Origin: Antedon mediterranea
Taxonomy: Eukaryota; Echinodermata; Crinoidea; Comatulida; Antedonidae
Direction: 5' to 3'
Length of the DNA: 64,000 nt
Assembly (NCBI RefSeq): GCF_964355755.1
Contig: NC_092670.1
Coordinates: 39,543,795-39,607,794 of the forward strand
The position numbers and the translations under genes are program-made. Positions 7,960 to 61,586 of the stretch are shown piece after piece; the stretch's first letter is position 1; the number at the start of each line of letters is the position of its first letter. The notes under the pieces are model-generated. The model was given only the letters and a program-made list of their open reading frames with translations, made no database searches and was not told the origin of the DNA.

Positions 7960-15679
<7,720 letters not shown>

Positions 15680-22966: not shown

Positions 22967-25466
22967 TCATTTACTAAAACTCAAACCATTTGGCGTTTTG
23001 CCAAATGAAACTTGGTTATTGTTTGAACTGTGTCGCCTCAAGTCTGTGTTTGTGTTTGTAACCGTTCCATTTCCATGCGAAGTGGATGAAAAGTCCGACA
23101 CTTTTTTAGAAGCTGCAAAAGAACTGTTCTTACGATCACTGGAATACCAAGTACTACTTCTGGTTCCTCGGAAAGTCGACGATAGCGATTTAAAACGTCT
23201 CCTGGTCTGGCCTGTCCATTGCCTATACTGACGTTTCCAATATTTACGAACATCTCTACTTCTCAAACAATACATGACAAATATAAAGAAACCTTGAAGA
23301 GAATTCAGGATACAGAAGAGTATCTGGATCATCGTAGAGGCCGTACCGATTGCAAAGAACCCAATAAGCCACGTCATTCCCATCACTACAGATATACAAA
23401 CTGCGTTCTGCAGTAGTTGCATACCTTTATTTTTTTTCTGAGTTTGGTGAGCTTGTTTTGATACTTTGCCCAGTTTACTTAGACTGTATAACACCATCAC
23501 AAATATTACCACGTTAAAGATCAATAGGATTGCTATGGGTATTGCTACGCTGTAATACATGCGGGTTAGAACAAGGAAACAACTGCAATGAAACAAAAAC
23601 AACTAATAACATAAATGAAAATAGTGAACATTTCAGAAAGAAGAAGAAAATGTTTTCACAACTAATAACATGTATTATGAAACCAGAAATGGCGGATTCA
23701 GCAGACAAGGCCTAAAAATGGTAAAATGTAAGTGCTGAACTGAGCCTAATGTCCTTTTGCATTTTAAATTTCAACATTTGGGAATTAATTTGTACTAATT
23801 TTGGGGTTTAAATAATTCAGAAATGATTCACTTACTAGTTGTCTGTATTTGCATAATTATCGACATCAATTGCTATAGTTACAACAACAATCACAACTGG
23901 TATGCCTGTAAAATAAAGATTATAACATGAATGTCATCATCATATGGTCAGATGGTACTGTAATAATGATGTCATTATTTCTATCTCTATTTTGATTTGT
24001 CATATTAAAAAAAAAATTGTTTATTTCATACGCATCCAACAGTGAGCACAAACTCGCCAATTACAGGTAAAACTATTTTATAATTTATCAAGCTGCTTAT
24101 AAACTAAGTCTCATCTCAGGCATAGGGAGTGGAGTTGAAAGAGTTTGAGTTACAACTCTTGCACTAGGTCAGGATTGAACTCTGGACCTTTGGATTTAGA
24201 GGCAAGCACGTTAACCACCAAGCCACAGCTCCACTACTAATTATCATCAACTTAACACAAATCAGTTAGTGCACAACTGATCAACAATTTTAAATTACAT
24301 AAAATACGTTTGAGTATTCCACAAATATATACGCCTTTGGATGTTTTAAACAGCACTGATTGAATACATGGCAAAGACTTACCCCAACCAAAGAGACACG
24401 CTTTTAGGAAAAATCTAGAAACATGCGTATCCAGAACTTTAACAAATGAATAATACATATTAATAGCTTGTATAGTCATCCAAAAGATTGACGTCAGTAA
24501 AAAGTAGTGAATTAGTCCGGCAATAGCTATGCAAGAGCCCTCTTTATCATTTTTGTCAATCCCTACGAGAAAGATGATGTATAAACAGAGTAGCGATACA
24601 CACAGGTGGCACAGAATCTGTTGAGGTTTACTTTTACGTAGCTTCCTGAAATAAGAAATAGTAATCATGCAAGTTAGTTTAAACTGTGAATTGGAACTTG
24701 ATATGTGTAAGAGAGTTCTTGATATAAGTTTGACTTTTTTTACGTTTCGATCAATATGATTTGAGCGTCCTCAGGAGTGAGAACGTAAGAGATTTATTAA
24801 AGTTTAATTTAAGATATTTTATAGAGGGTACTCTACGACCGAGTAGATTCTTGTCATTTGATTGGAGGATTGTGTTTTCCATAACTACTCCATTGAACTC
24901 TTACGTCATCAAGACATCAATTTCGTAATATGTCAATTGAATTTTGTTGCCCGTTTTTTTTATACACATACTTGCAGAAAAACAACTGCTAGTTGAGCCA
25001 AGTTTTTGTGTTTAAATAAAGCATATTATTATTATAGCATTTTGGTATGCACGACACAAGGCTAGGCTGTTGACTGATCGTGTATGAAAATCAACCTCTA
25101 GTGTGAGCCTTTTACTGCCTCTCCAAAGAGTTTTAGGTCTTTTCTCTCAATAAAAATAGGTGTGTTATAAAACTAATAATGAATATTTTATATACCTGCA
25201 ATGGCACAGATAATTTCATTCGGTGAAAGATGGAAAATGTTCTATTTTCACCTAATTTTTTTACGCTTAGTGCACAAATTTTACAGGTTTCAAACAGATG
25301 CAAATGCTTAGAGAGGGTCCTACATAGTAATGTGTTAATTGTTCTATTACCTGTTGCTTGTGAAAGTAAAAATAGTTGCAATTAAGCATGCAATTGATAT
25401 ACCAAGACCAATATATGTGATGTATTCTGCTATTTCGTTTTCCACTATTGTATCCGAATAAAAATT
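22967..25466 (-). CDS. Receptor seven-helix domain and C-tail (four exons)
   Basis: Exons 25466-25351 (helix 1, [20 protein letters not shown]), 24645-24383 (helices 2-3, including [13 protein letters not shown] and [20 protein letters not shown]), 23905-23836 (helix 4, [13 protein letters not shown]) and 23582-22967 (helices 5-7 and tail). Adhesion-family signs are GSC before helix 3 pairing with NYC in loop 2, GMTWLIGFF in helix 6 and [15 protein letters not shown] in helix 7. The tail of about 90 residues is rich in Ser, Thr, Arg and Asn and ends LSFSK. Confidence 0.93.
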
Positions 25467-28400
25467 CTGAAAAGGAAAAAAATATAAATCAACAAATCCA
25501 CTTATGAGAAGAATGGGTTAACATTTGACCTTTAACCCCTGTAGGTATACAGGAAAAACCAATGAATGTCTATCATGACATATCCCTCTTTATTGTGTCC
25601 AACCAAAAATAGCTACAGCTCCGTCAAACACTATCAAACTAGTTTGACCAAAAAGTGTGATGTGTAGTGATATGACATCATCATGTCCATACATGGGCAC
25701 ATCACATTTGTTTGTCACATAAAGTTTGATACTGTAGACAGGGCTTGATGACTAACCATAAGAACAGCAAAATTTGTTAAATGGTCACACTGGCAAACTT
25801 GTCTGTCACTGCCATCCATAGAGCCATTGGCTAAGTAGCAGCCATCACTTGACCAGCCACCAACATCACCGTAAAGTTTGAAATCCCAAAACACACAGGT
25901 GGTCTCATTATTATTCATGGATATCTACATACAAGAAAAATACACAGGTGGTCTCATGTTATTATGGATATCTACATACAAAGAAAAAACACAGGTGGTC
26001 TCATTATTATTCATAGCCTATATCTACATACAAGAAAAAGCACACACAGGTGGACACATTATAATTCATAGATATTTACATACAAGTGGTCTTCCATATT
26101 ACCTCAGATGGTATAAATGTTGTTGTAATTGGTTCTGGTAAATTGTTCAATTCAACTCCAGGTATTGAAAGAGAAATGACTTGACCGTTTGGTCGTCTGG
26201 TTTCAGTATCAAACTGAGTGGTTGGAAACAGTGAGCTATCATTATATACTACTGTAATCACACGGAACTCGTCGCTGCCTGATACAAAAAAAAGGAAGCA
26301 ATATTATATTTGCACAATAAGAAAATGAGGTAACAAAATATGTATATTTATTCACTGTGTGTATCTAAGGACGTGTTTCCTTGCTCTCCACATCTCAACA
26401 CAGTTTTGATGATTTTAACGTTTCATACGTGTATGATCCAAAAAATGACCGGGGTGAGAATGGGCAGGCCATTGAGAGCTTGATTATATGTGCTATATAT
26501 AACAATGAACTATTATTATTATTGTTCAAATAATTTAATTTGGCTTCGTGTGATTATTTTTAAGCCAAAAAGTATTGTTACATATATATAAATATTATTA
26601 TTATTATTTGATGTTCAGCGTTTTCTCTCTGTGTGTAATAATAACACTAATATTCTCACATACCAGATGAGGTTGTAATCATTGAAGAAACTCCTGGAGG
26701 AATATAAATACTGACAGACGCCAAGTTATCCAACTGTTCACTGAACTCTGTGACGTCCGTGATTTCATTGTTGTCTGATGATTGGAAAGACGCGAACCCA
26801 AAACCAAGGTCAAGTTCGTCCATGTTTAATATTTGCGCTTGTACTGCTACGTTGCTGGTAACCATTTCATATTTATCGTTTTCTAAATCAACGATTGCTA
26901 ATTGTTCTTCGAGAGATTCAATAATTCTACTCGGAGCGTTTGATTCCATCTGGCTCTCTAAGAGGACGTCATCTTCAATTTCAAACAGACTAGCAACAGT
27001 GTCAACTAATGTTGATGTAACCTAGACGGGAATTGTAATAAAATAAATAATAATAGGCGGATAACTAATTATTTCATCTGTAACTTTCTAGGAGAACATC
27101 ATCGTACAGTAAAAATTATCATTATCAGATGAACTTAGGAAAATGTTAGCAGAAGACGACCCAGGATTTTTCAAATGGGAGATTGCTAACATGGTATAGG
27201 GGAGGGGGCTTCTCTGCATTGGATTGGCCCCTGGTTAATAATTAATATTGCGAAACTGAAAAAAAGGAGGAAAGAATAAAAACAAGAATGAAAAATAGAA
27301 CAATGGAAACTCACTTGAGGTGACGTTGAATTGACAGCAACAATACTTTCAATAATGTCTGCAGTGGTTGTTAGACCATCTGATGTAATGTTGTCTGATC
27401 CACTTGTAATGTTGTTTACTGCAGTAATTACTTCTTCTGCATTATCTTCAGTAACTTCCACCTGAAAATAATCATTTAGGTGAGATAACATGGGAAATAT
27501 GATGTATGTTCTCTGAAAAAATAATTGTTTGTTATTTCATATGTATCCAACAGTAAGCACAAACTCGCCAATTACAGTATGGATAAACTATTCTATAGTT
27601 TATCGTGCTTATAAACTAAGTATTATTTGAGGCTTAGGGAGTGGAGTTTAAAGGGTAAAGAGTTACAACCCTGGTACTAGGTCAGGATTGAACCCTGGAC
27701 CTTGGAATTGGAAGGCAAGCATGTTAACCACCAAGCTACAGCTCCGCTTTATCAATGAATCTGAATTTTTTTTGGTACAACTAACCTCATTCAGTCGTTC
27801 CAAAAGTTCGTCTGCTGTAGCATCTCGACCGCAGTTTTGGTATTCCACCTGACAAGTTGCGGCAGATAGACCATCGCTATAGCAAGTACAATTGGCTTGC
27901 ATCTTGTCATCTATATTAGAAAGATATATATTTTAATTTCCAATTTCAAATGTCAAGTAGTGGTTAAAGGCAAAGCTTTCAAACACTATCAATGTGCCTA
28001 ATATGGTAGTGATGTGCCCAAATATATTAGTGATATGACATCATCGTGTCCATATATGGGCATATCACGTTTTCTTGTCACATAAAGTTTGATGGTGTAG
28101 ACTATATAAGGAAGTGCTTCCAGCATCTTTTTTAGAAGACAATAAACTACTATGTCCAGTAGTCATTAAGTTGATTAAGGTATATGTCTTGATAGGTTGG
28201 GTAATCATCAGGAATAGTCCTGAACAGGGAGATGAGTGCCCCTGCCCTCCGATGAGTTTCGGGATCCCTTTGACCCGGAGGGAGAGTACCCGTCAGGGTC
28301 CCTACCAAGGGTTACAGGTCCCAGGTTTTTAGTTGTTTTTAAAATTAATTAGTGTTCCATGACCTTCTCATCAAAATTAATGTCTCTCATTGTTGTGCTA

Positions 28401-31400
28401 TGTCAACATAATGTCAATGACGGCGAAATGTCCCCACTAATGGGGATAGCTATGCAAACAAGTAACAAGTAAGTAAGTAGACAGAGCTTTATACATACTG
28501 TATCAATATGAAATGTCAGTTTCACAATTGTAACTTACAATTCACTGTACTTTGTGGGCAAAATTCTCTGGATGCTACGGTTTGACCAACATCAGCAGGC
28601 TCAAATGTTACGTCACCTATCATCCCTCCGCTACAACGCTCTGTAAGTTAATTTAACACGAGTTTACTGAACTATTTAGGAAAAACCATAAAATTACAAT
28701 TGAAGACTCGACAATGTAACCCCCTACTCGTCACATGAGGTAGATGTGTACACTGGACCTACAGTTTATAGTCCTTATCGGAGAAAACTCGTTCTACAAG
28801 TAAAAAACTTAAATATTTATAGAGTTTAAGTTAAATACTTAATATCTACGGGCCTGATAGTGTCTGAGCCATTCTATATCTTACCAGTGCTAAATACAGC
28901 AATACTATCAGCATCAATAAACCCTTCTGTTTCAGCTAACAATGTCAATTCGTTGAATAAACCTTCACTGAATTCAGTGTACGAAATGTCTCCACTTGGC
29001 GTGTAGATGTTGACGTCAGCAATCACGCTTCCAGAACTTAACTTACGAACTTGCACAAATATATCGCTTAATGTGCTTAGACCATTCGTTAACTTTTTAA
29101 AAAAAAGTATTTTTTTAGAAATTATCAAATAGATCAAAAACTGTTTTAATTACTTATTTTCAATAAAAACATTTTTAATTGTAAGTAACCAGTTTAGAAA
29201 TTGTTTTAAATAATTATTTTCATTTAAAACATTTTTAATTGAAGTAACCGGTTTAGTACATCGAACTAAGAAAGGACCAGATAATTTTGAGCGATTTGAC
29301 ATTATTAATTGTCTCTAAATGTCGCTTTTTTTCTGCACTTCATTAAAAACGATTACTAACACCACTTTGATTCTAAAACAAACTTACCAAACTTGCAATG
29401 AGTGTAGACGTGTTTTTAAATTCTTCAGACGTAGTATCGGCCAATGCTGAATTATATGTTAAAGTCAGGAATGACATTACCACCGGTACTGTGTATGCAT
29501 CTAAATGATATTAAAAAAAAATATAAAAAACAATAATTCCAATAAAGTGGTTCCTACTAGAACTCAACAGATGTATACAGGAAATTAAATCAGATTTCAT
29601 GCAGACAGGGCAAACACAATTATTTACAGTACGTAGGTTGCTTTACGTTGTGTTGCTAGTGGAAACCAAACTTTATACTGTATTTATTCAAATAACGGCA
29701 AGGGTTTAATACAAGTTATAATTATTTGTTTTCGTTTTTTTTTCTACGAAAGTGATTACCATTATTAAAACTACAAAATAACCTATTCAAAGTCGGATTC
29801 ATTTTTCATGTTTTTGGGGGACATTGAATACATCTTTAAAGAGCAAGCTACACTCAGCACAAATACACTAATTTGCTTTTATTAGGAAACATTATAAACA
29901 GTAAAACAGGATTTGAATTTTCTTCTAGTGCTGAAACCTTCTTTGAACATTTCACAATATTATAATAAGTAGTAACCTGCAGCAATGAGAATCGCTTCCT
30001 CTGACGTTGCTGTTTCAGCCTCGTGTGGTGACACTCCAAACGCTTTGCAGTAGTAATAGCCTTGATTATCCAGACTCAATTCTTCAATTGTGAGATATTC
30101 TAGACTCTGTGTTTCCGATGGAAGTTCATTGTCGTCTTTATACCAACGCCAATCAACTGAGTAGGTTATGTTGCAATGGAAAGTGGCTGTACTTTGAAGG
30201 TCCTCTCTCAGAGCTAGTGGCTGAATTTCTGCAGTGGGTCTACCTAAAACATTTAAAACAAAAATGGAGTTACTGTATATAGTTTAAAAAATGTTTTCCT
30301 TCAAGAACTAAATTAAATTGCTGAGTTACTTGCTGTTTGATGAGTATGAAATAAAAAACAATGCTAATTTGAACTAGTGCTTTTCCACCAGGAAAAGAGT
30401 AATATCATGTAAAATATTTACCTGGTTCAATTTCACAAATGTCGCCCTCATACAATATCAGACATTTGCATACAAATTCTGACTCTAATTGCGCACATGT
30501 TCCACCATTCATACAAGGATTTGAAGTACAAGAATCTGGTGAAACAAATAAATTTGCATTAGACACAATCAATCAATTCTACAGCTCTGTCTACACTATC
30601 AGACTAGTTTGAAAAAAAAAGTGTAATGTGCCAAAATATGATAATAATATGACATCATTGTATCCATATATGGGAACATCACATTTTTTTGTCACATAAA
30701 GTTTGGTAAACAGAGCTTTATATAAGAGAATGGACAAAACAAACATTTTTAAATCTAATTATACCTCCTACTGTGATTTCAAATTGACAGGTAGCGTTGT
30801 TTCCTGATTGGTCAACTCCGGTGTATGTCACTATATACTGACCAACAGTAAATACATTCCCTGAATTTTCAGTTGAACTTAGCAGCACAGTTTCTCCAGA
30901 ATTATCGGTATACTCCGGATCTTCCCACGTAATATTTATTCCAGAGGGAGAGGTTGCCACAACAATGATTTCGCCAGGGCAGTCTAACACCGGTGATTCT
31001 TTATCTATTAAGAAATAAACAATGGTTAAAGTTCAGTAGATGATAAACTTGTCATGGGTTACAGACATGTGATCACAACCTAATCTAGGTCATAACTTTT
31101 ATTCAAATAATTTCTTCTAATATTAACTTCTTAAAGATATATTCTCCCCCTGAAAAAATTTTATTTTTATAATTGTTGAATATATCATTTTTAGGTCACA
31201 TACCGGTAATAGTTATTCACTTTGACCAAAAACTGGATGGAAAAAACAATTATTTACCTGAAAAAAAAAATCTTAGTTTAACGAATGCAATAATGAGTTT
31301 ATTACCTTCAACAGTGACATTAAATTTACATTCAGCGTTGTTACTGCTGTTATCACTAGCAGTGTAAATGACAAGAGTAGTTCCTATTTCAAATGAACTA

Positions 31401-34400
31401 CCAGGACTTTCTGAAGCTACAAGTGTCACTTGGCCTGAATTGTCTTCAATTACCGGAGTTTCCCAAGTTACTTGAGTGGTAGACAACATTGAATCAGTTT
31501 CCTCAACGATACTAACTGGACAAGTTTGAAATATTGGATCTTGATCATCTAGAATGAATCAATTTAAATGTCAAGACTTTTTTGTGGAGTATTCAAGAGG
31601 ACAACCACCAAGTACCAAGTATTTATTCATCAAATCAAGGAATAAATACATACTTGTATTTGATGGTTGAAGACGGTGAAGTAGAAAGGAATGTATTATT
31701 GAAAGAGTGGGTATGGGAATCCACCATCAAATAAAGAAGTTGAAGTATGAACAGTATGTTTACTTAACCATGGGATAAACATGACAATCACATAACATTT
31801 ACAAAAACAGTAAAATGCTTGAAAAATAAAATAATCTAAGTGCATGTTAAAATGAAAACCTGAAATAAATTAATCACACCTTGTTATTACCATTTAGAGC
31901 CAATACCTAAGCCTCATAATAAGATTAGAAAATGGGGGTTCAAATTTCTGTAACTTGTTTACAAGGAGCATGTCTAGGGGACTGCCCTGGACTGCCTTAT
32001 AAGTTGTTTACCTATGTACTCCTTCCTAGAAGGAGACGGAAAGCCAGACAGTGGCATGTTATAAAAGATACTTGATTTGCTCTTGATGAAAGAAGACATG
32101 TTTTGTTAATTAATTAACTCTAAGTACAGAGTAATAATTATCTGACTATTTATTTTACAAGTCTAAATAGATCCCAATATAACAATAAGTTCAATCTTAT
32201 ACATGGGCTAAAACAAACATGGTACCTTTGACAATAACGTTAAAAGAGCACTTGTCCATGTTGCCAAACACATCTGTAACCACATACTCTAAAGTTGTGA
32301 CACCGATAACAAAAAATTGTCCAGATTGGTTGTACTGAGTACCGGACCCAGACACGCTCAAGTCTTCAGTGTTGTCTGTGAAGTTAAATGACCAGCTGCT
32401 GACCAATGCAAAAGCTGACCCATCATCAGCGAAGATATCAATATTGTCAGGACAAAATATACTTGGGTTTTCTTCATCTATTTACAGTTTGTAAAAATGT
32501 CAAATAGAAGATTACTATTATATATATACATGTATCCGTAGAATAAAGACAATATAAATAATAATTACGCCTACCACCATTAGTGGAAAAATACAATTTA
32601 TATTATAAACAATTGAAAAAAATTGATAATAGAAATATACAGATAAAAGTAGTACCAACAACTGTTGTAAGTCCTGGTAAACTAAAATATAACTATAATA
32701 AAAATAGTAATGCATGGTTATCATAATCTAAAAAAAAATCACAATATTAACAAATATAATTCCCTAAACATTTTATTCTATCTATATATACATTCAAAGA
32801 CATTGAAATGAAGAAAACTGTTGAAAATCTACAGAAATATGGAGAATTCAGTTGGCACAATTTCCATTTTATAAAAATAGCACTTTTTGTTAGAAAATGT
32901 CAAATGTTTCAAACTTTCTTCTGTAAAATTAAGAGATAAGAAGAAAAACACAATGCATGCTCATATACAAACCTGTGTTTGAAAGTTATAAAACAGCTTA
33001 TAAAACCGTCTTCTACAACTTTGACAAGATAATACTTGATTATCTTCCCGTAAAATTACCAAATAAAAGAAGAAATAGCAAGCCGTTCGCGCGCAAAACA
33101 AAACAGAGCGAAAAGAATAATAATATACTCGCATACAGTTATATGGCTACAAACAAAAATTGATCTGCCAGTAAATCTACACCGTAACCACAACAGTAGT
33201 AGTAGTCTATATCTACTGACAAATGTCTCTAATTTTACGCATTATCAACAAGAACCAAATAATTGAACAACTTTATACCTTATATACCTCATACACATAA
33301 GTAGTAAAGTATTATACTCTTCAAATATGCATTTTTCTTTATTGTTCTGATATTAATTACAATCAATGCTTTATAATGAATTTTCTTGTTTTTTCACTCG
33401 CCATTGAAAATTCATTATTTACTGATTAATAGTAATCATATCAGAAACTAAAAAAATGTTATTTGATTGAAAACTCTGATCAATTCAGAAGAATAGAATA
33501 GATCACACAAGTTGAAAAGACACTAACAACTTGACACCATGTGTGCAATTGGTGTCTTCTCCTTATCTCGAACGATAGCTAAGTATACATAGGTACAATA
33601 GAAAATATATGACAATTGTCCACTTTAAGTATTGATGTTAAACAGACTTAGAATTATTATTTTATCATATTCAGCAAATTTAAATTTCTTACCAAACACT
33701 TTAATATAGAATGTACATTCTGCCATATTCCCATACACATCAGTAGCTTCACATGTTACATTTTGTCTTGTCACAGGCCAGATCGCATCAAATTGATCAC
33801 CAGATTCTCTACTACAGGTCCAAGTTACATTGCCTGAGTTGTCACTTACTGATACATTCCATGAGACAGTGGAATATGCTTGACCAGGATCAGTTAATGC
33901 TACATCAATGTTGTCAGGACATGTTAACATAGGTTCATCGTCATCTAAGAACAAAAATAAAGTTTTTTTATATATTACTAACACTGTCAAAGCCAAAATC
34001 ACCTTCTGAGTAAAAAAGTAAGTTACTTGCCTGCAACATTTACTGTAAAAGAACAATTGGCAGAGTTGCCAAATATATCTTCAGCAATATATTCTATTTT
34101 AGTTGTGCCAACATAAAATTCTTGTCCTGAACTATCATAGTTTGTAGAAGAGCCAGTCACAATTACATCATACATTGCTGGACTGTTGTCTGTGATGCTC
34201 ACTGACCAGCTGACCATTGCTTTATTGGACCCATTGGTAGTGAAGACATCAATATCACTGGGACATGAAACAACTGGTTGTTCTTTATCTAAAAACATTG
34301 GAAAAAATGAATGTGTATAAAAAAAGACAATAGTAGAAAAGTTACTTACATAATTATTAGGTGAAGTAGAAAAGTCTTACCAATTACAATGACATAAAAA

Positions 34401-52400: not shown

Positions 52401-55400
52401 GGCATGTTGTATTAACGTTTTCCCCCATGTCAGTTGCATTATATTTGACAAGAGTAGATCCAATTGAGAATGTGTCACCACCATCAAAGTTTGATAGAAT
52501 CGTCGGAGGGTCACCAGAGTTATCGGTTGCTTCTACAGTTGTCCAGTTGACGACTGCTGATGGAAGATCTGGATCGGTTCTTATGATTATATCCGATGGA
52601 CATTCCGTGAACACTGGCGGTTCAGTATCTACAATAAAAATGTATGTAAATATTGGTCTACAGTTTTTATGTATCTCCAGTGCCCTATTATGTGCTGTAC
52701 TGAATAGTTCCTATTGAGCTACTCAATGCTGAGAAGAACTATACTGTAGCAACAACCACACTGTGTTTTTATTATTGCTTATACAGAGTAATTACTGCTG
52801 CAACCACAGACAGTGCTTCAGAAATACTAAACTACAGGTATATTATATTGTGAATACTACACCCAAATGGTATTACAGCAAATGATATACTGCTGTGACC
52901 AAAGAAGTCTATGCAGCTATAACAGCAGTATTACAGCAGAAAAAGACAATTTCTGCCAAAAAAAGTTAATTTCTCAAACAAAATGATTGTCTCACCTTTA
53001 ATAGTAACTGAGAATTTGCAGGTAGTGTTAACATTGCCGGCAGGATCAGTAGCATTGAACATAACATCAGTTGTGCCAATTGGAAAAGTTGCTCCAGATT
53101 CAAGAGAACCATCTATCATAACAGTCAGCAGAGAATTATCAACAGCAGTTACATTTGGCCAGGTGACTATAGCAGTTGGGAGACCAGGATTGGTTTCATT
53201 CATAATGTCACTCGGGCAACTTGTAAACTCTGGAGGCTCCATGTCTGTAAAAAAAATAATAATATAGCATTATTTCAAAGTTATTGTTTTCACTGTAACT
53301 AGAAGATTTTTACAAAGATTCCATAGCATTGTGCAAAGTAGGTGGACATAGGCCTATATATGGCTGTTGAAATTTTTAGTAGATTTAATTTATTATTTGC
53401 TTCGAAAATTTACAAATATTTTCTATTTTACCCATGATTGTAATGTTGAAGGAACAAGTTCCATTAACATTGCCGGCTGCATCTGTTGCATTGTATTCAA
53501 CTGTAGTAACACCAATTGGAAATGCAAAACCACTGTCATAGTTTGATAAAATGGTTGGTTGCTCATTTGAGTTGTCTGTAGCTGTCACGCTATCCCATGT
53601 TTCAACCGATGTTGAAGATCCGGGATCAGTCTCAGATGTAATGTCAACTGTACATGATGTAAATAACGGGGCTTCGTTATCTAAAAAAATAATAATAACA
53701 TACGGTAAACAATATCTCATAAGGTACAAATATTAATCATGGTAAAAGTATGTTTGATTGGTATAATACCTGTTATATCAACTCTGAATGAGCAGGAATC
53801 GTTAGTATTGCCGTACATATCTGTAGCATTGTACATGACAAGAGTTGAGCCAATCGGAAAGCTTGTACCATTCTCGTAATTACTGTCTATTGTTGGTGTG
53901 ACACCAGAATTGTCTATAGCTTCGACGGCACCCCATGTGATTACTGCGTCTGCAGAGCCTGGGTCAGTGGTATCTGTGATATCATCCGGACAGGCCGTGA
54001 AATCTGGTTTTTCATCATCTAATTTTCATTGATAAAACAAAAATGATTACATTATTTTAACATTTTGAACCGACTGATAACTGGGAATGACATTTTGTTT
54101 AGACATAATGAGGTAGTAGGCCTATATGAGTGAGATTAACTACTTGTTCAGTTATGTGCTAATGGTAGAAATAAATTACTGTAGTTAATTATTACTGCAG
54201 TAAGTATTTTCATAAAAAAAACTTTAAACCTTTGACTGTTACAGAAAATGTACACGTTCCAGTATTTCCACTAGGATCTGTTGCTATGTATGTATTAGTA
54301 ATAGTAGTAGTAAGGCCTGACGTCAAAGCAACTTGATCTCCAATGTCATAGTTTGAGACAATCGATATAGCACATTGGTTGTCCTCATCTACCGTTGGTT
54401 CAACCCATGATAGCGTTGCAAAGTTTTCATTGGGATCTGTTGGAACTGTTTGATCTGGTGGACAGTAAGTGAACGTCGGACTGTCCGAATCATCAACTGA
54501 AAACGACACAAGAAAAAAACCCCAATATTAAAAAAAAGTGGTACATTTCCACAAAATATTTGAAGCTCTGTCTACACTATCAACTAGTTTGACAAAAATG
54601 TGTGATGTGCCCATATAGTGGTGATATGCCCAAATATGGTAGTGCTATGACAAATGTCCATATATGGGTACATCACTTTTTTTTGTCACATAAAGTTTGT
54701 AGACAGAGCGTTAGCATAAATGAATTATGTATAAATATGTGGTTAATAATCTATGCATGCAAAAAAGGAGGAAGCTTCACAATAGGAGTTTGACAACATG
54801 GCACCACATCATACTTACATATTTAAAAAGGCGATTGAACCACCGAAGAACATACTTACATATTTCACATACAAAAGATAGGATATCAGCACAGCTTTGA
54901 TCGTTCCAGTTCCACTGGTTTGCATACATTTCAATGCAATCTTCATCACCCAAATTATTTGGTTCAGCATTACGAAAATCTGCAAATGTCCATTAATTTT
55001 ACATAAAATTACGTTATAGTAGACACTTAAATTAGCAGTGGTTGATACAATACTTTAAAATAATGGTGGGGGGGGGGGGGGGGAAGGGGAGAGAAGGGAA
55101 CCCAGGGCCTAAAAATTGATTAGCAGTGGTGGATACCAAACTTTGAAATAGTGGTGGGGAAGGGGAGAAAAAAATTTAAAAGTGAAGTGTTGACTAAATG
55201 TTGGATTTTTACAAATTTAGATTTTAAAGTAATTCCAATTGTGCTGCAGTCTATTCATAACCTACATTAACCAAGTTGTTCAAATATATTTGTTTACTTT
55301 AGCACTGTATAATATTGTAAATGTCTTACTTGTATAATTGGTGCATTCCCCAGTTTCTACCCAAACAAATAGTCCTTCTTCATCTATATCTCTAAAACCA

Positions 55401-58400
55401 ATCCATACTCTTGCGGAAATAAGTGAACCAATAAAATCATTTTCTGCTTGACTGCTTATCACAACAAGATCAGCTCCAAGACTCTGACAGGTTGATCTAG
55501 CTGTTTGCCAATTAGCGTTATCATCGCTAAAGTATCTGTAACAGCTTCCATTGTATGCTGTCCAATCAGGTGGGCAAGCTAAATATAAACAGTAGAATAG
55601 TATGAAATGTGAATTTAATAATAATAATACTGTATTTATTAGGTCATCAATGAATAATATCCATAAGGGGAAATGGCTAAAAATTGAAATTGTTGGTGAA
55701 CTCTTTATGTATGTAAAGGCCAACTCAGACAGCGTCGTACAACGAGGCCCGACGAAAAGTTTTGACTTGTAGGTGTTGTCTGTTGAGTTGTCTTATGCGA
55801 TAGCTTCGGGCATAGTTTTTAGGTCGTCGCAAGAACTTTAAACATGTCACTCATCAGGCCTTGATGCTGTCTGAGGTGGCATGAAATAACAATCTAAGAA
55901 AACTTTCATTTTTATATTTACCTGTTATATTAACTGTGAATGAGCAGGAATTGTTAGTGTTGCCATACATATCTGTAGCATTGTACATGACAAGAGTTGA
56001 GCCAATCGGAAAGCTTGTACCATTCTCGTAATTACTGTCTATTGTTGGTGTGACACCAGAATTGTCTATAGCTTCGACGGCACCCCACGTGATTACTGCG
56101 TCTGCAGAGCCGGGGTCAGTGGTATCCGTGATATCATCCGGACAGGCCGTGAAATCTGGTTTTTCATCATCTAATTTTCATTGAAAAAACAAAATTTATT
56201 ACATTATTTTAACATTTTGAACCAACTGATAACTGGGAATGACATTTTGTTTAGACATAATGAGGTAGTAGGCCTATATGAGTGAGATTAACTACTTGTT
56301 CAGTTATGTGCTAATGGTAGAAATAAATTACTGTAGTCAATTATTACTGCAGTAATTAGTATTTTTATAAAAAAAACTTGATACCTGTGACTGTTACAGA
56401 AAATGTACACGTTCCAGTATTTCCACTAGGATCTGTTGCTATGTATGTATTAGTAATAGTAGTAGTAAGGCCTGACGTCAAAGCAACTTGATCTCCAATG
56501 TCATAGTTTGAGACAATCAATATAGCACATTGGTTGTCCTCATCTACCATTGGTTCAACCCATGATAGCGTTGCAAAGTTTTCATTGGGATCTGTTGCAA
56601 CAGTTTGATCTGGTGGACAGTAAGTAAATGTTGGACTATCCAAATCATCAACTAAAAACGACAAAGGGAAAAAAAAGCTCAATATTATAAATAAAACTTG
56701 AAGAAATATGGTGGTGATATGCCCAAATACGGTAGTGTTATGTCCATATATGGGCACATCACTTTTTTTTTGTCACATAAAGTTTGATAGTGTGGACAGA
56801 GCTTTAGCGTAAAAGAATGATGTATAAACACATGGTCAATAATCTATGCATGCAAAAAAGAAGGGAGCTTCACAATAGGAGTAGAAGTTTGACAACATGG
56901 AACAATATCTAACTTAAAATTAAATCTTTGTTTACCTAACATTACAGACTAAAAATTATTATCTTATTATACCAGAAAAAAGTAAAAAGGCGATTGAACC
57001 ACCGAAGAACATACTTACATATTTCACATACAAAGGATAGGATAAGAGTACAGGGTAGATCGTTCCAGCCCCACTGGTTTGGATACATTTCAATACAATC
57101 TTCACCACCCGCGTTATTTGGTTCAGAAGGACGAAAATCTGCAAATTTCCATTAATTTGGTATTTATATTATAAAAAATTACGTTATAGTAGATACTTAA
57201 ATATACGAGTATAGCAGTGGTTGATACAGTACTTTGAAATAGTGGTGGGGAAGGAGAGAAGGGAAGCCAGGGCCTAATATTGATTAGCAGTGGTGGATAC
57301 CAAATTTTGAAATATTGGTGGGGAAGGGGAGCCAGGGCCTAAAGATTGATTAGCAGTGGAGGATACCAAATTTTGAAATAGTTGTGGGGAAGGGGAGAAA
57401 AGAACCCAGAGCCTAAAAATTTAAAAAATGAAGTGTTGACCGAATGTTGGATTTTTACACATTTAGATTTTAAAGTAATTCCAATTGTGCTGCAGTCTAT
57501 TCATAGACCATCTTAACTAAGTTGTTCAAATATATCTGTTTACTTTAACACTGTATAATATTGTAAATGTCTTACTTGTATAATTGGTGCATTCCCCAGT
57601 TTCTACCCAAACAAATAGTCCTTCTTCATCTATATCTCTAAAACCAATCCATACTCTTTCGGAAATAAGTGAACCAATAAAATCATTTTCTGCTTGACTG
57701 CTTATCACAACAAGATCAGCTCCAAGACTCTGACAGGTTGATCTAGCTGTTTGCCAATTAGCGTTATCATCGCTAAAGTATCTGTAACAGCTTCCATTGT
57801 ATGCTGTCCAATCAGGTGGGCAAGCTAAATATAAACAGTAGAATAGTATGAAATGTGAATTTATTTATTAGGTCATCAATGAATAATATCCATAAGGGGA
57901 AATAGGCTAAAGCCCAAACGGATTCTGCACTCACTCCATACAATAGTTAAATAAACCATGTTATTATACCTCCATGAAACCCTTATATCAAGGAGATTAA
58001 ACAATTGTATTACAAATAAAACTATACATAAATAAAGTGTTTTGTTAGAGCATCTTTAAATATTGAAATTGTTGGTGAACTCTTTATGTATGTAAAGGCC
58101 AACTCAGACGAGGCCCGACGTCTTGACGAGTTGTCTTATGCGATAGCGTCAGGCATAGTTTTTAGGTCGTCACAAGAACTTTAAACATGTCACCCGACGA
58201 GATGACTCATCAGGCCTCGTACGATGCTGCCTGAGGTGGCATATCAACAATAAGTACTTTTGTATGAATGACAAACCTCCATATGAAATAATTATAAGTC
58301 CTGTGGGTTCGGATATAGATCCTTCAAACACATTTGCCGTGACTGGCGTGGTTGTGTTGGCCCCTTCAACTGCTTCAACTCTCACTACTTCGTGTTCATC

Positions 58401-61400
58401 CCAATCCGTATAATAAACGAATCCTCGGTGATAAAATACATCGAACGGCCTTCCTTGAGCGATTTCATGAACTAGTTGATTCAAATTCCCCCAGTAATCC
58501 ATTCTTCGTATCATAGACCCAAGCCCAGTAGAAGTGGATATAGCAACGTACAACCAACCGCCTTTAAAAACAACATTACATGTTATAACACACCCGGATT
58601 GTATTTTTGCAATTTGATTGGTCAAAAATACACATCACGTCATTTGGAATTAGCCTTACCAATGAAAAAATGATATCTGATGGTGATAAATAACAGGCTC
58701 TTATGCACGTTCAACTTTCTGTAAACATTTTGAGGATTTTTACCATGCGACATGTTGTGCGCGCCGTCTATAACTGTCAAAAGTCCGATGATCTAAAGCT
58801 TTTATTTAAAGGAGTTCAATGAATTTGCAACATATACCTTTGACATCCAATGACAGACCATTAAACCACCCATCTACTTCCATTGCTATAGTAGTCCTAT
58901 CTTGGCCCTCATAAGAACTTCGTTCAATTTTATTAGTCTTCCTGTCACTCCAAAATAATGTTCTAAAAAAGCATGTACAATATGTGTTTTAATTTTTTTT
59001 TCTACAGTCAACCTTCCAGTTGCTTGTATTAAAATGTGTATATTTTTATTTTCGTTACCGCTCGTCTGTGTAAATTGGCCTTAATACAAACCTGTTTGAA
59101 ATAAGTGCCAGAATTCCTCTTGGCTTTTGTAGACCGGTATTGATTATAATTTTGCGATCACTTCCATCAATTTGTACAGACTCAATTGTATCGTTTATTG
59201 AGTCAGTCCAAAAGATGGTTCTTGTTAAATGATCAACCGCGACTGCCTCTGGATCTGAAACAGAACAACACATTTCATTTTATTTTATTTAACTTTACTA
59301 ATAACTTAAATAAAGCAAAGGAGCCTAAATGAAAGCATAGCTTGTTTGTATATATATTGCAATATACATACAGTGCAACATCAGAAAATCTTTTTTGATA
59401 CAATGCAAATACAAAAATATATTTATAAAATAAAGTATAAACTGTTATCAAAATATTCAATAAGAAAAAATATAGTAGCCAATTAATGGTCTAGATTTTA
59501 ATGTAGTATTAAGGAAGAAACCACCTCTTTTGAGATATTCCGGTGACATCCACTATGAAGAGGACACGCTCCTGTGAAGTGGACAAGTGAATGTTGCCCC
59601 TATTAAGTGAACAATTTGCTGGGTTCAGACAGTGTCACTTTAATAGGGGTTTTACTAGACTAAAGAACACATAACACATGTTATTTTTTTTAAACTTTCC
59701 TAATACTACATTAAATAAATAAACGACAACGATTTGATGCAACTGTACCTGCCACCTCTGAAAATAAATTAAAATAACTTACATGTTATATTTTCACTGA
59801 CAACAATAGTAAAACTGCTTCCGCTGAGCGGCGTCTTTAGTATCAGCCCGTTCTCAACGTCTGTTATATAAATTTCTTGTAACACTGGATCATAGTCGAT
59901 TCCAGAAAATCCGTATGTACTGTTATAATAATAAATTTGTAAATCAGTTTCATTATTATTTAATCTTCCGCCATAAATTGCTCCGGGTGCACCATCTAAA
60001 ACCATGAGTATGTCATTAGTCTCACCATCTGAAACTAGATAAAAAAAAATATCTTAGGCTTTGAATTATTCACTGCAGTTACAGGTTAAAATTGTAGGTG
60101 ATTAAAGTTTCATTGGTTACATCCTAGGCCTATAAAACTTTTGAGTCAGTCTCAGTATCATAATTGTCAACCATTTTCACATCTGCAGATAGTAACATCA
60201 TATTTTGTAAACAAGTGCATGTGAAGACAATTTGTTAAAATTCTCCAGAGATTTTCCGGCCAGAAGCCTGATTTTTGATCAGAGATTGATACTGTGCAAC
60301 TTGCACTGGTATTTAACTGACCAATCACTACCGGTACATTATGCTGAAAAGTGCTTCCAACTATTATGACAATACTTGTGCAAGGTTCGCAAAATAATAT
60401 GTTTGAAAACGTGGAATCAAAATATATGTTACAATGTTTAACAATTTATGCAGTGTGAAAGGGGTTCAAATAATGTAAACCATGGGGTATAAAATACATC
60501 TTGCATGTTGTAACTTAACTTACTGAGTGATGTAACTTAACTTACTGACTGAGTGATGTAACTTAACTTACTGAGTGATGTACCTTAACTTACTGAGTGA
60601 TGTACCTTAACTTACTGACTGATGTAACTTAACTTACTGACTGATGTAACTTAACTTACTGAGTGATGTACGGTAACTTAACTTACTGAGTGATGTAACT
60701 TAACTTACTGAGTGATGTACGGTAACTTAACTTACTGAGTGATGTACGGTAACTTAACTTACTGAGTGATGTAACTTAACTTACTGAGTGATGTTAAGTT
60801 CCATGGTTGTAATCCTAAACACATTGATTCATCAGAACCGTCTGAACAATCAATATATTGAGAATCACACTCAAAACTTCCTGGAAGACACAACATTGAA
60901 CCGGATATACACTGGAACTCATCTGCATTGCATGTGGCTGCAAAATGATAACAAAATCAGTTAAATTGAATAATATGACATGTGGTTGGATATTGGAATT
61001 TGAAGAGACAGGCCTTTTTCATAATTTGTTATATCAAATTTGTAATGATTTTACTGACATACAAACACTAAGATTGAGTAACAATTCCAATAAAATATTT
61101 TCCTGTAAAATTAATTCTTCTTTTGATGTTTTGATTTATATACTTTTTACCTAAGAAAAATGCCACAAATTTACATACATGAGAGTCAATTTGACTTTCC
61201 TATCTTATAAACACAAAAAAGTCCTGTGTAGCTATATATATTTTTTTATAATCAACAAAAGCACTTTTAAACCTGGAGTTGCCCTTTGACTTTTTTTTTA
61301 ATCCCACCTGGCTTAACTACCTTTTTGCTTGACACAAGGTCAACATCTTGTGGGTGAATGTGACCGAGGAAGAATAACTTACCATATTGTATAGACTCAA

Positions 61401-61586
61401 GTACTAAACTGTACTACTTTCCTTTCCACACCTTTTTACAATGTCTTTAAAGTATCAAACTGAACTTACTACAATTGACTTCATCAGATGAATCGCTACA
61501 GTCACCTGTTCCGTCACATCTTCTTGTATAATTCGAAATACATTCACCATCCTGGCAGGTGAAACCATTAGTACAGGATTGGCATT
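22967..61586 (-). CDS. Giant HYR-rich adhesion GPCR (71 exons recognised, 5' end open)
   Basis: A single phase-consistent chain of 71 exons gives about 5,490 residues and ends at TGA near 22967. Order: LDLa x2, four propeller exons, CTLD, HYR x2, CTLD, HYR x45, EGF, Ig, SEA-like, a Cys-rich exon, GAIN, GPS, seven-helix core, tail. The family consists of surface receptors that autocleave at the GPS and signal through a tethered agonist; adhesive ligands here are unknown. Nearly every ectodomain exon is phase 1-1. The first recognised exon needs one base from an upstream exon, so the start and signal peptide lie beyond or were missed. That it is one gene rather than two is inferred from unbroken phase and strand, with no start or stop in between. 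Confidence 0.85.
24117..24236 (-). mobile_element. SINE-C copy (tRNA-like head)
   Basis: Minus strand reads GGAGCTGTGGCTTGGTGGTT (A box region), then GCTTGCCTC and AGAGTTCAATCCTGACC (B box). In an intron of the seven-helix region. Related copies at 27596-27752 and 42826-42935. Confidence 0.7.
25617..25746. mobile_element. MITE-1 copy
   Basis: Ends 10 bases outside the GPS-exon donor. Termini CAGCTCCGTCAAACACTATC and GATACTGTAGACAGGGCTTG. Confidence 0.78.
25757..25924 (-). CDS. Receptor GPS exon
   Basis: 56 codons. [31 protein letters not shown] match the GPS motif (four Cys, two Trp, HL|T cleavage site). The residues after Leu (TNFAVLM) form the tethered agonist. Confidence 0.95.
25886..26095 (-). 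repeat. Tandem copies of the GPS-exon 3' splice site
   Basis: About four copies of a roughly 50-bp segment (plus-strand words ACACAGGTGGTCTCAT and ATATCTACATACAA) run from inside the GPS exon into the upstream intron. Each retains a TGTATGTAG acceptor and the first exon bases, creating potential alternative acceptors. Confidence 0.8.
26103..27910 (-). CDS. Receptor GAIN domain exons and preceding Cys-rich exon
   Basis: Exons 27910-27786 ([27 protein letters not shown]), 27461-27315 (helical, [14 protein letters not shown]), 27021-26664 ([21 protein letters not shown]-like beta region, [15 protein letters not shown]) and 26278-26103 ([23 protein letters not shown]). Helical part A followed by beta part B just before the GPS is the GAIN layout needed for autocleavage. 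Confidence 0.85.
27596..27752 (-). mobile_element. SINE-C copy
   Basis: Same head as 24117-24236: GGAGCTGTAGCTTGGTGGTT, then AGGGTTCAATCCTGACC on the minus strand. Lies in the intron before the Cys-rich exon's partner. Confidence 0.7.
27971..28102. mobile_element. MITE-1 copy, diverged
   Basis: Left end CAAAGCTTTCAAACACTATC, right end GTTTGATGGTGTAGAC. Interior TATGGTAGTGATGTGCCC units. Confidence 0.72.
28539..29500 (-). CDS. Receptor SEA-like module and Cys-containing linker
   Basis: Exons 29500-29388 ([19 protein letters not shown]), 29092-28885 ([36 protein letters not shown]) and 28640-28539 ([27 protein letters not shown]). The beta-alpha pattern with a VxxxxxGSVxADV strand fits SEA domains. 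No clear GSVVV autocleavage loop is visible, so it is probably non-cleaving. Confidence 0.7.
28709..28800 (-). mobile_element. SINE-A fragment
   Basis: Shares AACCCCCTACTCGTC and CTACAGTTTATAGTCC with the copy at 13729-13995. Confidence 0.5.
29690..29845. mobile_element. MITE-2 fragment
   Basis: Contains CTACGAAAGTGATTACC, CTACAAAATAACCTATTC and TTTTTGGGGGACATTG as in other TTAA-family copies, ending ATACATCTTTAA. Its left half is missing. Confidence 0.55.
29977..30243 (-). CDS. Receptor immunoglobulin-like exon
   Basis: 89 codons. [17 protein letters not shown] and [15 protein letters not shown] give the Ig core Cys, Trp and DxGxYYC pattern. Confidence 0.92.
30422..30535 (-). CDS. Receptor EGF-like exon
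   Basis: 38 codons, phase 1-1. [30 protein letters not shown]: six Cys with EGF spacing. It has DSC at the start but no full calcium-binding consensus. Confidence 0.92.
30582..30720. mobile_element. MITE-1 copy
   Basis: Between the EGF exon and the last HYR exon. Left ACAGCTCTGTCTACACTATC; the right end has a small deletion (GTTTGGTAAACAGAGCTTTA). Confidence 0.8.
30765..32477 (-). CDS. Receptor HYR exons 45-47 (C-terminal)
   Basis: Exons 32477-32226, 31548-31306, 31004-30765, all phase 1-1, 80-84 residues each. They have the HYR pattern CPxxI, ITW(E/S)xP, DNSG and (V/I)YTAxDxSGNxAxCxFxxTV. Exon 45 resembles the neighbouring A/B array ([15 protein letters not shown]). Confidence 0.92.
31131..31262. 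mobile_element. MITE-2 fragment
   Basis: Left end TTAAAGATATATTCTCCCCC with interior TTGACCAAAAACTGGATGG. Truncated 44 bases before the exon 46 donor. Confidence 0.55.
32478..33692 (-). other. Long receptor intron, no gene seen
   Basis: AT-rich intron between HYR 44 and HYR 45. Short plus-strand frames here have no family features. Confidence 0.6.
33693..41038 (-). CDS. Receptor HYR exons 28-44, A/B dimer array
   Basis: Type A exons (252 nt each): 41038-40787, 39024-38773, 38297-38046, 37557-37306, 36813-36562, 36057-35806, 35320-35069, 34632-34381, 33944-33693. Type B (258 nt each): 39402-39145, 38681-38424, 37934-37677, 37197-36940, 36448-36191, 35692-35435, 34976-34719, 34288-34031. They alternate A-B. 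Type A reads [49 protein letters not shown] (four Cys). Type B reads [43 protein letters not shown] (two Cys). Seven B exons end AG|GCAAGT (GC donor); the one at 37677 ends AG|GTAAGT. Introns are repeated along with the exons. Confidence 0.95.
33945..35320 (-). repeat. Two nearly identical 688-bp A-B units
   Basis: Units offset by 688 bases include one B exon, one A exon and both introns. The two B exons (34031-34288, 34719-34976) encode identical 86-residue domains, and the flanking introns match almost base for base. A very recent duplication or conversion. Confidence 0.9.
39403..40786 (-). other. Receptor intron separating the first A exon from the array
   Basis: Holds a SINE-A copy and AT-rich DNA. 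No further HYR exon was found in this interval, although A-B spacing elsewhere is only about 370 bp. Confidence 0.6.
39546..39723 (+). mobile_element. SINE-A copy with an insertion
   Basis: ACCTAGTACATTTTTCGAG and GTAGGGGGTTACACTG, then an unrelated stretch, then AACTGGGCCAGTCTTTGAC and CATCCAGTATAAAT, matching 2013-2265. Confidence 0.6.
41232..47545 (-). CDS. Receptor HYR exons 15-27
   Basis: Exons 47545-47303, 46732-46490, 46388-46146, 45796-45554, 45157-44915, 44723-44472, 44169-43933, 43655-43410, 43219-42974, 42777-42535, 42208-41969, 41812-41570, 41486-41232. All are phase 1-1 and 79-85 residues. Each has a CPxDI-like start, a (V/I)xWxxPxxxDN core and a (V/I)xYxAxDxSGNxxxCxFxVxxxG end. 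They are much more diverged from each other than the A/B array. Canonical GT-AG introns. Confidence 0.93.
42826..42935 (+). mobile_element. SINE-C copy
   Basis: GGAGCAGTAGCTTGGTGGTT, GTGCTTGCCTACC and CAGGGTTCAATCCTAAG match the heads at 24117 and 27596 in the other orientation. Confidence 0.65.
47010..47268. repeat. 11-bp minisatellite with a 22-bp dimer pattern
   Basis: Alternating TTGGTGTTTAA and CTGRTATTTAA units, just beyond the donor of HYR exon 15. About 20 units. Confidence 0.88.
47793..48340. mobile_element. MITE-2, full-length TTAA-flanked copy (548 bp)
   Basis: Begins TTAAAGATGTATTGTCCC and ends GGGACAATACATCTTTAA, a perfect terminal inverted repeat bounded by TTAA. This suggests mobilisation by a piggyBac-type transposase (TTAA target). 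No coding capacity. In the intron between HYR 14 and 15. Confidence 0.85.
48516..53680 (-). CDS. Receptor HYR exons 5-14
   Basis: Exons 53680-53432, 53244-52996, 52628-52380, 52239-51991, 51657-51397, 51267-51016, 50754-50503, 50185-49940, 49821-49579, 48776-48516. All phase 1-1. Exons 5-8 are a closely similar subgroup of 83 residues (CPSDI, NATDxAGNVNxTCxFxxxI), continuing the style of exons 2 and 4, so an older local duplication is likely. Confidence 0.93.
53770..54496 (-). CDS. Receptor HYR exons 3 and 4
   Basis: Exons 54496-54230 (267 nt; [27 protein letters not shown], an atypical HYR with an inner Cys and a longer loop) and 54018-53770 (249 nt; [25 protein letters not shown]). Duplicates of exons 1 and 2. 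Confidence 0.93.
54563..54713. mobile_element. MITE-1 copy within the duplicated block
   Basis: Left end GAAGCTCTGTCTACACTATC. The interior has two 21-bp-type units (GATGTGCCCATATAGTGG, GATATGCCCAAATATGG). The right end AGTTTGTAGACAGAGC has a small deletion. Confidence 0.85.
54860..55578 (-). CDS. Receptor C-type lectin domain, copy 2 (two exons)
   Basis: Exons 55578-55330 and 54979-54860. [45 protein letters not shown] (WIG core), then [19 protein letters not shown] and LSFVCEI. EPN plus WND are the calcium and mannose-type sugar ligand motifs of CTLDs. Confidence 0.93.
55068..55083. repeat. Poly(G) run of about 16
   Basis: A 16-base G run in the CTLD intron on the plus strand, inside local repeats of AGCAGTGGTKGATACMA. 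A G-quadruplex or sequencing-error-prone site. Confidence 0.8.
55718..55882. mobile_element. MITE-3 foldback, copy 2
   Basis: Ends GGCCAACTCAGACAGCGTC and an inverted GATGCTGTCTGAGGTGGC, interior GACGA/TCGTC words. Lies at the edge of the duplicated block; the partner is at 58093-58240. Confidence 0.65.
55922..56651 (-). CDS. Receptor HYR exons 1 and 2
   Basis: Exons 56651-56385 and 56170-55922, paralogous to exons 3 and 4 with only a few substitutions. Phase 1-1. Confidence 0.93.
56709..56805. mobile_element. MITE-1 copy, left end lost, in the duplicated block
   Basis: GATATGCCCAAATACGG, then the interior and right end GATAGTGTGGACAGAGCTTTA. Same position within the block as 54563-54713, so insertion preceded the duplication. 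Confidence 0.8.
57019..57824 (-). CDS. Receptor C-type lectin domain, copy 1 (two exons)
   Basis: Exons 57824-57576 and 57138-57019. The first exon is almost identical to copy 2. The second differs more ([28 protein letters not shown]) but keeps EPN, WND and the paired Cys. Confidence 0.93.
58093..58240. mobile_element. MITE-3 foldback, copy 1
   Basis: GGCCAACTCAGACGAGG and an inverted ATGCTGCCTGAGGTGGC. Interior TCTTATGCGATAGC shared with copy 2. Confidence 0.6.
58277..60034 (-). CDS. Receptor LDLR class B (YWTD-type) propeller, four exons
   Basis: Exons 60034-59783, 59254-59092, 58962-58838, 58561-58277. Blade motifs: [34 protein letters not shown] with [25 protein letters not shown], and [28 protein letters not shown] and YYTD stand for YWTD. 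The length suits five to six blades. LDLa followed by a propeller is the LDL-receptor arrangement, though the usual EGF cap is not seen. Confidence 0.9.
60507..60797. repeat. 22-bp array of splice-donor-like sequence (about 12 copies)
   Basis: On the minus strand each unit reads CACTCAGTAAGTTAAGTTA plus a short linker (22 bp, some 27 bp). The first unit is the real donor of the second LDLa exon (CTCA|GTAAGT), so exon end and donor have been copied downstream into the intron. Confidence 0.88.
60785..60937 (-). CDS. Receptor LDLa exon 2
   Basis: 51 codons, phase 1-1. [34 protein letters not shown]: six Cys and the acidic CSDGSDE calcium motif, then a linker to the propeller. Confidence 0.92.
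61470..61586 (-). CDS. Receptor LDLa exon 1 (most 5' exon recognised)
   Basis: 39 codons. [35 protein letters not shown]: a canonical LDLa repeat. Needs one base from an upstream exon not found in this window. Confidence 0.92.

Follow-up and report, generated by a model that had tools for sequence, protein, structure and literature searches.

The window, as we call the whole stretch of 64,000 bases analysed here (C1:39543795-39607794 of a 354 Mb genome), raises the question of whether its minus strand carries one gene for an adhesion GPCR of extraordinary length or two neighbouring genes that merely read as one. A sequence-only reading had proposed a single receptor of about 5,490 residues, in which an LDL-receptor-like head, two lectins and 47 HYR domains precede a seven-helix core. 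We consider it probable that this is indeed one gene, coding for a giant echinoderm adhesion GPCR with a conserved base and a varying head.

Exon model and domain order

The model was built exon by exon from splice sites and comprises 71 exons on the minus strand, from 61586-61470 (first) to 23582-22967 (last), with all phases agreeing. Spliced together, these give 5,484 codons with a sole stop at 22967, so that the in-phase chain from LDLa to the seven-helix core, and very nearly its claimed length, were recovered independently. The introns range from 83 to 1,384 bases (median 261); the two longest, of 1,384 and 1,215 bases, both lie in the HYR region and, compared with each other for homology, gave short chance matches only. 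The spliced model contains 148 possible N-glycosylation sites, and no start codon of the model lies inside the window. An exon-chain search trained on the HYR exons handled GC donors badly, left several array exons too short, recovered the 7TM region only in part and did not pick up the Ig exon. The order of domains is LDLa twice, YWTD propeller, C-type lectin, two HYR, C-type lectin, 45 HYR, EGF, Ig, SEA, HormR-like, GAIN-GPS (HL|T) and 7TM. The Pfam scan covered two HYR exons and both ends of the protein (its first 600 and last 1,108 residues), and matches above the Pfam cut-off were obtained for both LDLa, the LDLR class B repeats, C-type lectin, HYR, EGF, GPS and 7tm_2. The features are as follows, from 5' to 3'.

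74831-74771 in window-based numbering (C1:39618625-39618565), minus strand: candidate signal-peptide exon MAPSKFTFCVIFGLLLPVLI, 10.8 kb beyond the window edge
61470..61586, minus strand: LDLa 1 exon, first exon of the model, phase 1 (Pfam)
60785..60937, minus strand: LDLa 2 exon (Pfam)
58277..60028, minus strand: YWTD (LDLR class B) beta-propeller, Pfam Ldl_recept_b; exons 60028-59783, 59254-59092, 58962-58838 and 58561-58277
53753..57911, minus strand: block of lectin plus two HYR, doubled (copies 53753-55681 and 55904-57911), single in the tandem paralogue
57019..57824, minus strand: C-type lectin A with EPN and WND; exons 57824-57576 and 57138-57019
55922..56651, minus strand: HYR1 and HYR2 (Pfam HYR)
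54860..55578, minus strand: C-type lectin B with EPN and WND; exons 55578-55330 and 54979-54860
41232..54496, minus strand: HYR3 to HYR27, one exon each (Pfam HYR)
33693..41038, minus strand: HYR28 to HYR44, near-identical copies of an A/B pair
40786-39403, minus strand: largest intron, within HYR28-44, directly 3' of HYR28
30765..32477, minus strand: HYR45 to HYR47; HYR46 and 47 are similar to the HYRs that end the run in other family members
30422..30535, minus strand: EGF exon (Pfam E 6.9e-7), the sole EGF-like match in the gene region
29977..30243, minus strand: Ig exon (Pfam Ig_2 E 4.4e-5, below the curated cut-off), kept in five paralogues
28885..29500, minus strand: SEA domain (Pfam SEA E 1.5e-4, below cut-off), kept in paralogues; exons 29500-29388 and 29092-28885
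28539..28640, minus strand: HormR-like exon, by position and pattern, with no Pfam match; kept in paralogues
26103..27910, minus strand: GAIN; exons 27910-27786, 27461-27315, 27021-26664 and 26278-26103
25757..25924, minus strand: GPS (Pfam E 2.3e-13) with CDHL|T and the tethered-agonist-like TNFAVLM
22967..25466, minus strand: 7TM and cytoplasmic tail; exons 25466-25351, 24645-24383, 23905-23836 and 23582-22967 (stop)

Elsewhere in the window, a ferroportin gene lies in exons on the plus strand at 2535-6028 (Pfam FPN1 matches all four of the plus-strand frames examined there), and a minisatellite at 10235-12918 consists of 127.6 copies of a 21-base unit with 97% matches. The latter leaves hundreds of codons open in several frames on both strands and is easily mistaken for coding sequence. 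Downstream of the receptor, at 20121-20849 on the minus strand, an open frame of 243 codons has hydrophobic stretches and no Pfam match.

The combination of two LDLa and Pfam-recognised LDLR class B repeats, that is, of LDLa plus YWTD propeller, makes the head LDL-receptor-like, as had been read from the sequence. LDL-receptor-like proteins have a single-pass anchor with an NPxY tail. Among solved structures, the propeller matches LRP2, LRP4, LRP6 and nidogen, and an NCBIfam search of the head gave no match. Both lectins of the earlier reading proved to be of the C-type, with the EPN and WND motifs of Ca-dependent mannose-type lectins, EPN marking the mannose type; solved relatives of the lectin in the PDB are proteins of the mannose-receptor family and DC-SIGN. 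Between lectins A and B, the first exon shows 1 difference in 249 bases and the second, which carries the sugar-binding motifs, 18 in 120. This contrast is as expected from a diversifying binding site, and conversion of the first exon would look alike.

Each HYR domain is encoded by one exon of phase 1-1, and Pfam HYR (PF02494) matches 47 of the 47 exons at E<=0.01, which bears out the count of 47. A local HYR profile, built from the window gene and its tandem neighbour, likewise counted 47 domains on the minus strand of the window and 0 on the plus strand; the reversed sequence, the complemented sequence and 3 shuffles made base by base within 300-base blocks also gave 0 matches. Chance repeats were rejected as a source of the HYR matches, as all of these controls were empty. 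The donors of the HYR exons are GT in 40 cases and GC in 7. The seven GC donors (G|GCAAGT) lie within 34031-39402, and the tandem paralogue has five; the donor changed within the array, because GT is found at further array exons of that type. One HYR exon searched against PDB sequences had no match at E<=0.1. A structure model of one HYR from the 47-row alignment is all beta (mean pLDDT 95.9). In fold comparison it comes closest to Ig-like domains of bacterial surface proteins and to dystroglycan and cadherin domains, with modest TM-scores and one match only at E below 0.001. HYR domains are modelled as Ig-like beta-sandwiches.

The earlier domain list was correct as far as it went, but it had overlooked the EGF, Ig, SEA and HormR-like exons between the HYRs and GAIN; the last is presumably HormR. 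The GAIN region matches ADGRG6 (PDB 6v55, E 4.5e-19, query residues 147-465), and Pfam GPR128_GAIN_subdomA falls just below its cut-off. An H-L-T cleavage triad and a hydrophobic tethered agonist lie at residues 5120-5130, so that the ectodomain has about 5,120 residues and the fragment C-terminal of the HL|T site 361. The 7tm_2 match is complete (Pfam E 8e-42, profile positions 4-250 of 250). With 7tm_2, a GAIN with GPS beside TM1, and H-L-T followed by a tethered agonist, the protein is an adhesion GPCR (class B2) by its domains. When GPS plus 7TM was compared with the PDB, ADGRG2 scored E 1.1e-61, ADGRG6 3e-59 and ADGRV1 E 7.6e-17.

A conserved base with apparently different heads

About 73 kb upstream of the window gene lies a tandem paralogue with the same order, 45 HYRs and one lectin; the one lectin and two HYRs that it lacks correspond to the block found in double in the window gene. 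A trypsin exon ending in a stop is found upstream of the tandem paralogue, at about 39686 kb on C1, and bounds that gene on its 5' side. Frames are kept in all 67 exon pairs compared, and length differs only in the Ig exon, which is one codon (3 bases) longer in the window gene. Between the two copies, pN/pS is 0.11 for GAIN-7TM, 0.29 for EGF-SEA-HormR (without Ig), 0.28 for the HYR28-44 array, 0.28 for HYR45-47 and 0.54 for HYR3-27; these groups leave out the Ig exon as well as HYR1-2 and lectin B, for which the paralogue has no equivalent. For LDLa-YWTD the ratio is 0.99 (5 silent and 18 replacing changes), with no excess of silent changes, and 23 changes are too few to claim selection. Lectin A against the lectin of the tandem paralogue gives 0.68, and the value of 0.83 for the whole head mixes lectin A with the paralogue lectin, whose second exon resembles lectin B. 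Small as the numbers are, the pattern agrees with a signalling base that is held constant while the tip changes.

Counting window gene and tandem copy, the genome contains 14 copies of the GAIN-c exon with an identity of at least 67%, as well as four more distant copies at 37-40% and four weak ones at 28-31%. Mitochondrial COX1, by contrast, had no match in the assembly. All listed genome matches lie on contigs C1-C11, which suggests eleven chromosomes; crinoids have eleven chromosomes. At 13 of the 14 GAIN-c loci, an HYR match lies within about 1.4 kb upstream of the Ig exon, and for the copy on C2 there was no such match among the best 150 of 1,417 candidates. The order HYR-EGF-Ig-SEA-HormR-GAIN-7TM is kept in five diverged paralogues, two on C1 and one each on C3, C4 and C8, with per-exon identities of 44-82% from HYR to the GPCR core, and HLTNFAILM is kept in all five. 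The two C1 loci and those on C4 and C8 match exon by exon (HYR-HYR-EGF-Ig-SEA-SEA-HormR-GAIN(4)-GPS-TM1-TM2/3-TM4-TM5-7), and the C3 paralogue has the same order up to TM2-3, where the examined DNA ends. Directly before its EGF exon, the C3 paralogue has 40 HYR matches, 38 of them near full length, the first lying 0.7 kb from the edge of the DNA examined. From these five paralogues it follows that long HYR runs do directly precede such receptor cores.

The modules before the HYRs differ. The C1 member at 7.23 Mb has a CUB exon (E 3.3e-11) just before the HYRs and a MAM-like stretch before them (E 0.0013, below cut-off), the C4 member a mucin WxxW domain (E 9.3e-16) just before the HYRs, and the C8 member sits behind four CUB exons. 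Judging by their position, the CUB, mucin WxxW and MAM-like modules would belong to the same transcripts as the paralogue receptors. On the same strand near the C1 7.23, C4 and C8 loci, no copy of the fourth propeller exon was listed, and none of the window gene's lectin exon was among the best 150 of 295 candidates. The fourth propeller exon occurs at three places, the window gene, the tandem copy and C1:39.34 Mb (46%), with a further weak, partial match on C6; the search for LDLa and the other propeller exons covered the DNA of the loci examined. Judged by these comparisons, the window gene is not a singleton but one of a family of about fourteen genes with differing tips, in which the base HYR-EGF-Ig-SEA-HormR-GAIN-7TM appears conserved and both HYR number and head appear to vary. 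Exons of the same CUB family also form tandem clusters at C1:5.64-5.86, C6:24.19-24.24 and C9:18.90-18.97 Mb, the C9 cluster lying amid many 7tm_2 matches.

One gene or two

Whereas HYR-EGF-Ig-SEA stands beside the receptor core in the five further paralogues, the head is joined to the core by the model and the tandem copy only. The spliced model, Pfam and the same layout in the tandem paralogue back the original proposal of an adhesion GPCR in which a long HYR region follows a head of LDLR and lectin modules; that the head is part of the same transcript is only likely, and from the sequence a single continuous transcript from head to 7TM is likely.

The main alternative, which we regard as unlikely, is that two adjacent genes lie on the same strand. 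The first would encode an LDLa-YWTD-lectin-HYR protein, either secreted or anchored, and the second a shorter receptor of the order HYR-EGF-Ig-SEA-GAIN-7TM; their border would fall in one of the long introns after HYR13, HYR28 or HYR44. The locus at C1:39.34 Mb (C1:39.339-39.389 Mb) speaks for this alternative, where LDLa, YWTD, HYR, EGF and lectin exons occur with single-helix-like ends after EGF, there being no 7tm_2 among the matches listed and no GAIN or 7TM exon in 50 kb; these are perhaps anchored HYR proteins. HYR1, 3, 14, 15, 19 and 20 of the window gene are closest to the HYRs of that locus (79-96% identical), and for this reason the 5' part may be a separate gene, or may have been one in the past. 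HYR46 and 47, for their part, are 65-70% identical to the last HYRs of the receptor paralogues, and with its affinities split in this way the window gene is therefore a mosaic of two sources. However, HYR15 and HYR20 also have relatives (71% and 58%) in the third-last and second-last HYR of the C3 receptor.

The two longest introns fall in the region of the proposed border, and a hydrophobic frame at 40633-40352 is readable as an anchor. Yet a border at the longest intron would cut the A/B array, because HYR28 belongs with HYR29-44, and the HYR region has neither an EGF exon nor a helix exon like those closing the genes at C1:39.34. A second gene might start at one of the signal-peptide-like readings found in four introns of the model (49414, 48897, 40567 and 31845). 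Those at 49414, 48897 and 31845 are not among the start-like readings of the paralogue, although 48897-48834 has a good donor (GTGAGT). The reading at 40567-40501, after HYR28, has a weak donor and is also present in the paralogue, where its conservation is uninformative because the host intron is 98.3% identical; codon use did not separate the start candidates. Against these stands the candidate signal-peptide exon upstream of LDLa-1, which has a GTAAGT donor and phase 1, occurs in both tandem copies with one change, and is the only start candidate with a strong donor common to both. Together with the tandem copy, which keeps the entire order, this argues for one gene from head to 7TM.

It is very improbable that the repeats, or the tandem copy as a false duplication of one allele, are artefacts of the assembly. 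Identity to the second copy is 95-98% over most of 22.5-55.9 kb, which in marine animals is within the range of alleles. But it drops to 81-92% in the head, and the introns differ by 11.8% in the head (the LDLa-YWTD exons by 2.1%) and by 6.7% in the array, against 1.2% for HYR3-27 and 1.5% in the tail. As the intron differences are so uneven, the pair looks old and partly homogenised rather than like two alleles. Moreover, the match ends on the 3' side near 21.4 kb, short repeats apart, and continues on the 5' side only as diverged pieces (76-92%) to about 76 kb; the lectin block is doubled in one copy only, and the layout from HYR to 7TM recurs in diverged paralogues. A decaying pair of pseudogenes is more improbable still, since the GC donors and the one-codon difference in the Ig exon are all that was found in its favour, against a pN/pS as low as that of GAIN-7TM and reading frames that run without an internal stop or a break through the 71 exons and through the 67 paralogue exons compared.

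Known relatives and possible mode of action

Our searches of the literature, on HYR proteins generally and on HYR or hyalin in adhesion GPCRs, found no described adhesion GPCR with HYR or with this domain order, in line with the sequence-only reading, which knew of none; a figure supplement of PMC12716839 may list HYR. No HYR occurs in the main text of that paper, though it is indexed for both terms, and no HYR-bearing adhesion GPCR appears in the excerpts of PMC12716839, PMC4302439, PMC13197933, PMC6208332, PMC12549020 and PMC9496679. The sponge adhesion GPCRs likewise carry unusual heads (SRCR, Ig, FN3 or EGF) on a GPS-7TM core, according to an excerpt of PMC4302439, and HYR is absent from the domains named in the figure legend given there.

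By rank of PDB score, ADGRG6 (GPR126) and ADGRG2 (GPR64), both of adhesion GPCR group G, are the best solved relatives of GPS plus 7TM, and ADGRG6 that of GAIN. ADGRG6 has SEA and HormR before GAIN, as the window gene does. Its tip, however, consists of CUB and pentraxin, with no HYR, lectin or LDLR modules, and it has about a quarter of the window gene's length. ADGRV1 (VLGR1) is likewise a giant adhesion GPCR that owes its length to many copies of one beta-domain, but its repeats are Calx-beta instead of HYR, it has EPTP and LamG modules, and the 7TM of the window gene matches it far less well. The window gene has neither Calx-beta repeats, of which there was no match in the segments scanned, its repeats being HYR, nor a 7TM of the ADGRV type. 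An excerpt of PMC9496679 mentions numerous Calx-beta motifs in ADGRV1 and an antibody against murine residues 6198-6307.

Hyalin has long HYR runs in an echinoderm protein, and differs in being a secreted egg-coat protein without a receptor core. Among the egg bindin receptor proteins of sea urchins, EBR1 combines HYR repeats with CUB and TSP repeats (excerpt of PMC8403831), and EBR1_5 has a transmembrane domain, SEA and seven HYRs (excerpt of PMC5521101). The likeness to EBR1 lies in the HYR repeats, and CUB exons also precede the HYRs in paralogues of the window gene; the difference is that these excerpts describe no GAIN or 7TM for either protein, EBR1 being said to have no predicted transmembrane domain. 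Our guess is that EBR1_5 is an incomplete model of a member of the HYR adhesion-GPCR family.

Binding modules, a cleavage site, the tethered peptide and a 7TM region are all present in the window gene. By analogy with the adhesion GPCR family, binding, force and signalling could be linked as follows. GAIN would cleave itself at HL|T, the two pieces staying together. The HYR chain would hold the sugar- or ligand-binding head up to about 0.2 micrometres from the membrane, a reach that is calculated from about 4 nm per domain of this kind. The head might then bind a glycan or protein on another cell, on the matrix or on a microbe, and binding would pull on the HYR chain, which would transmit or limit the force. 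As a consequence, the GAIN-cleaved halves would separate or shift and free the tethered agonist TNFAVLM, which would activate the 7TM and switch on a G protein. The protein may thus serve as a stalk, mechanosensor or recognition receptor, as had been suggested. One might speculate, as a rather doubtful proposal, that on egg or immune cells it responds to sperm, kin cells or microbes that touch it with a direct G-protein signal.

If this reading is right, the gene shows how far exon duplication can lengthen an adhesion GPCR and how heads can be exchanged while the signalling base stays the same. Its modules overlap with those of the bindin receptor, which suggests that the recognition of sperm or cells may be linked to GPCR signalling, and the varying number of HYRs among paralogues provides a natural series in which stalk length can be set against force sensing. 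As bindin is known from echinoderms, the genome most likely belongs to one of them: it has a Pfam Bindin match at C1:15552879 (E 2.3e-28, profile 98-163 of 238), with one stop inside when introns are disregarded.
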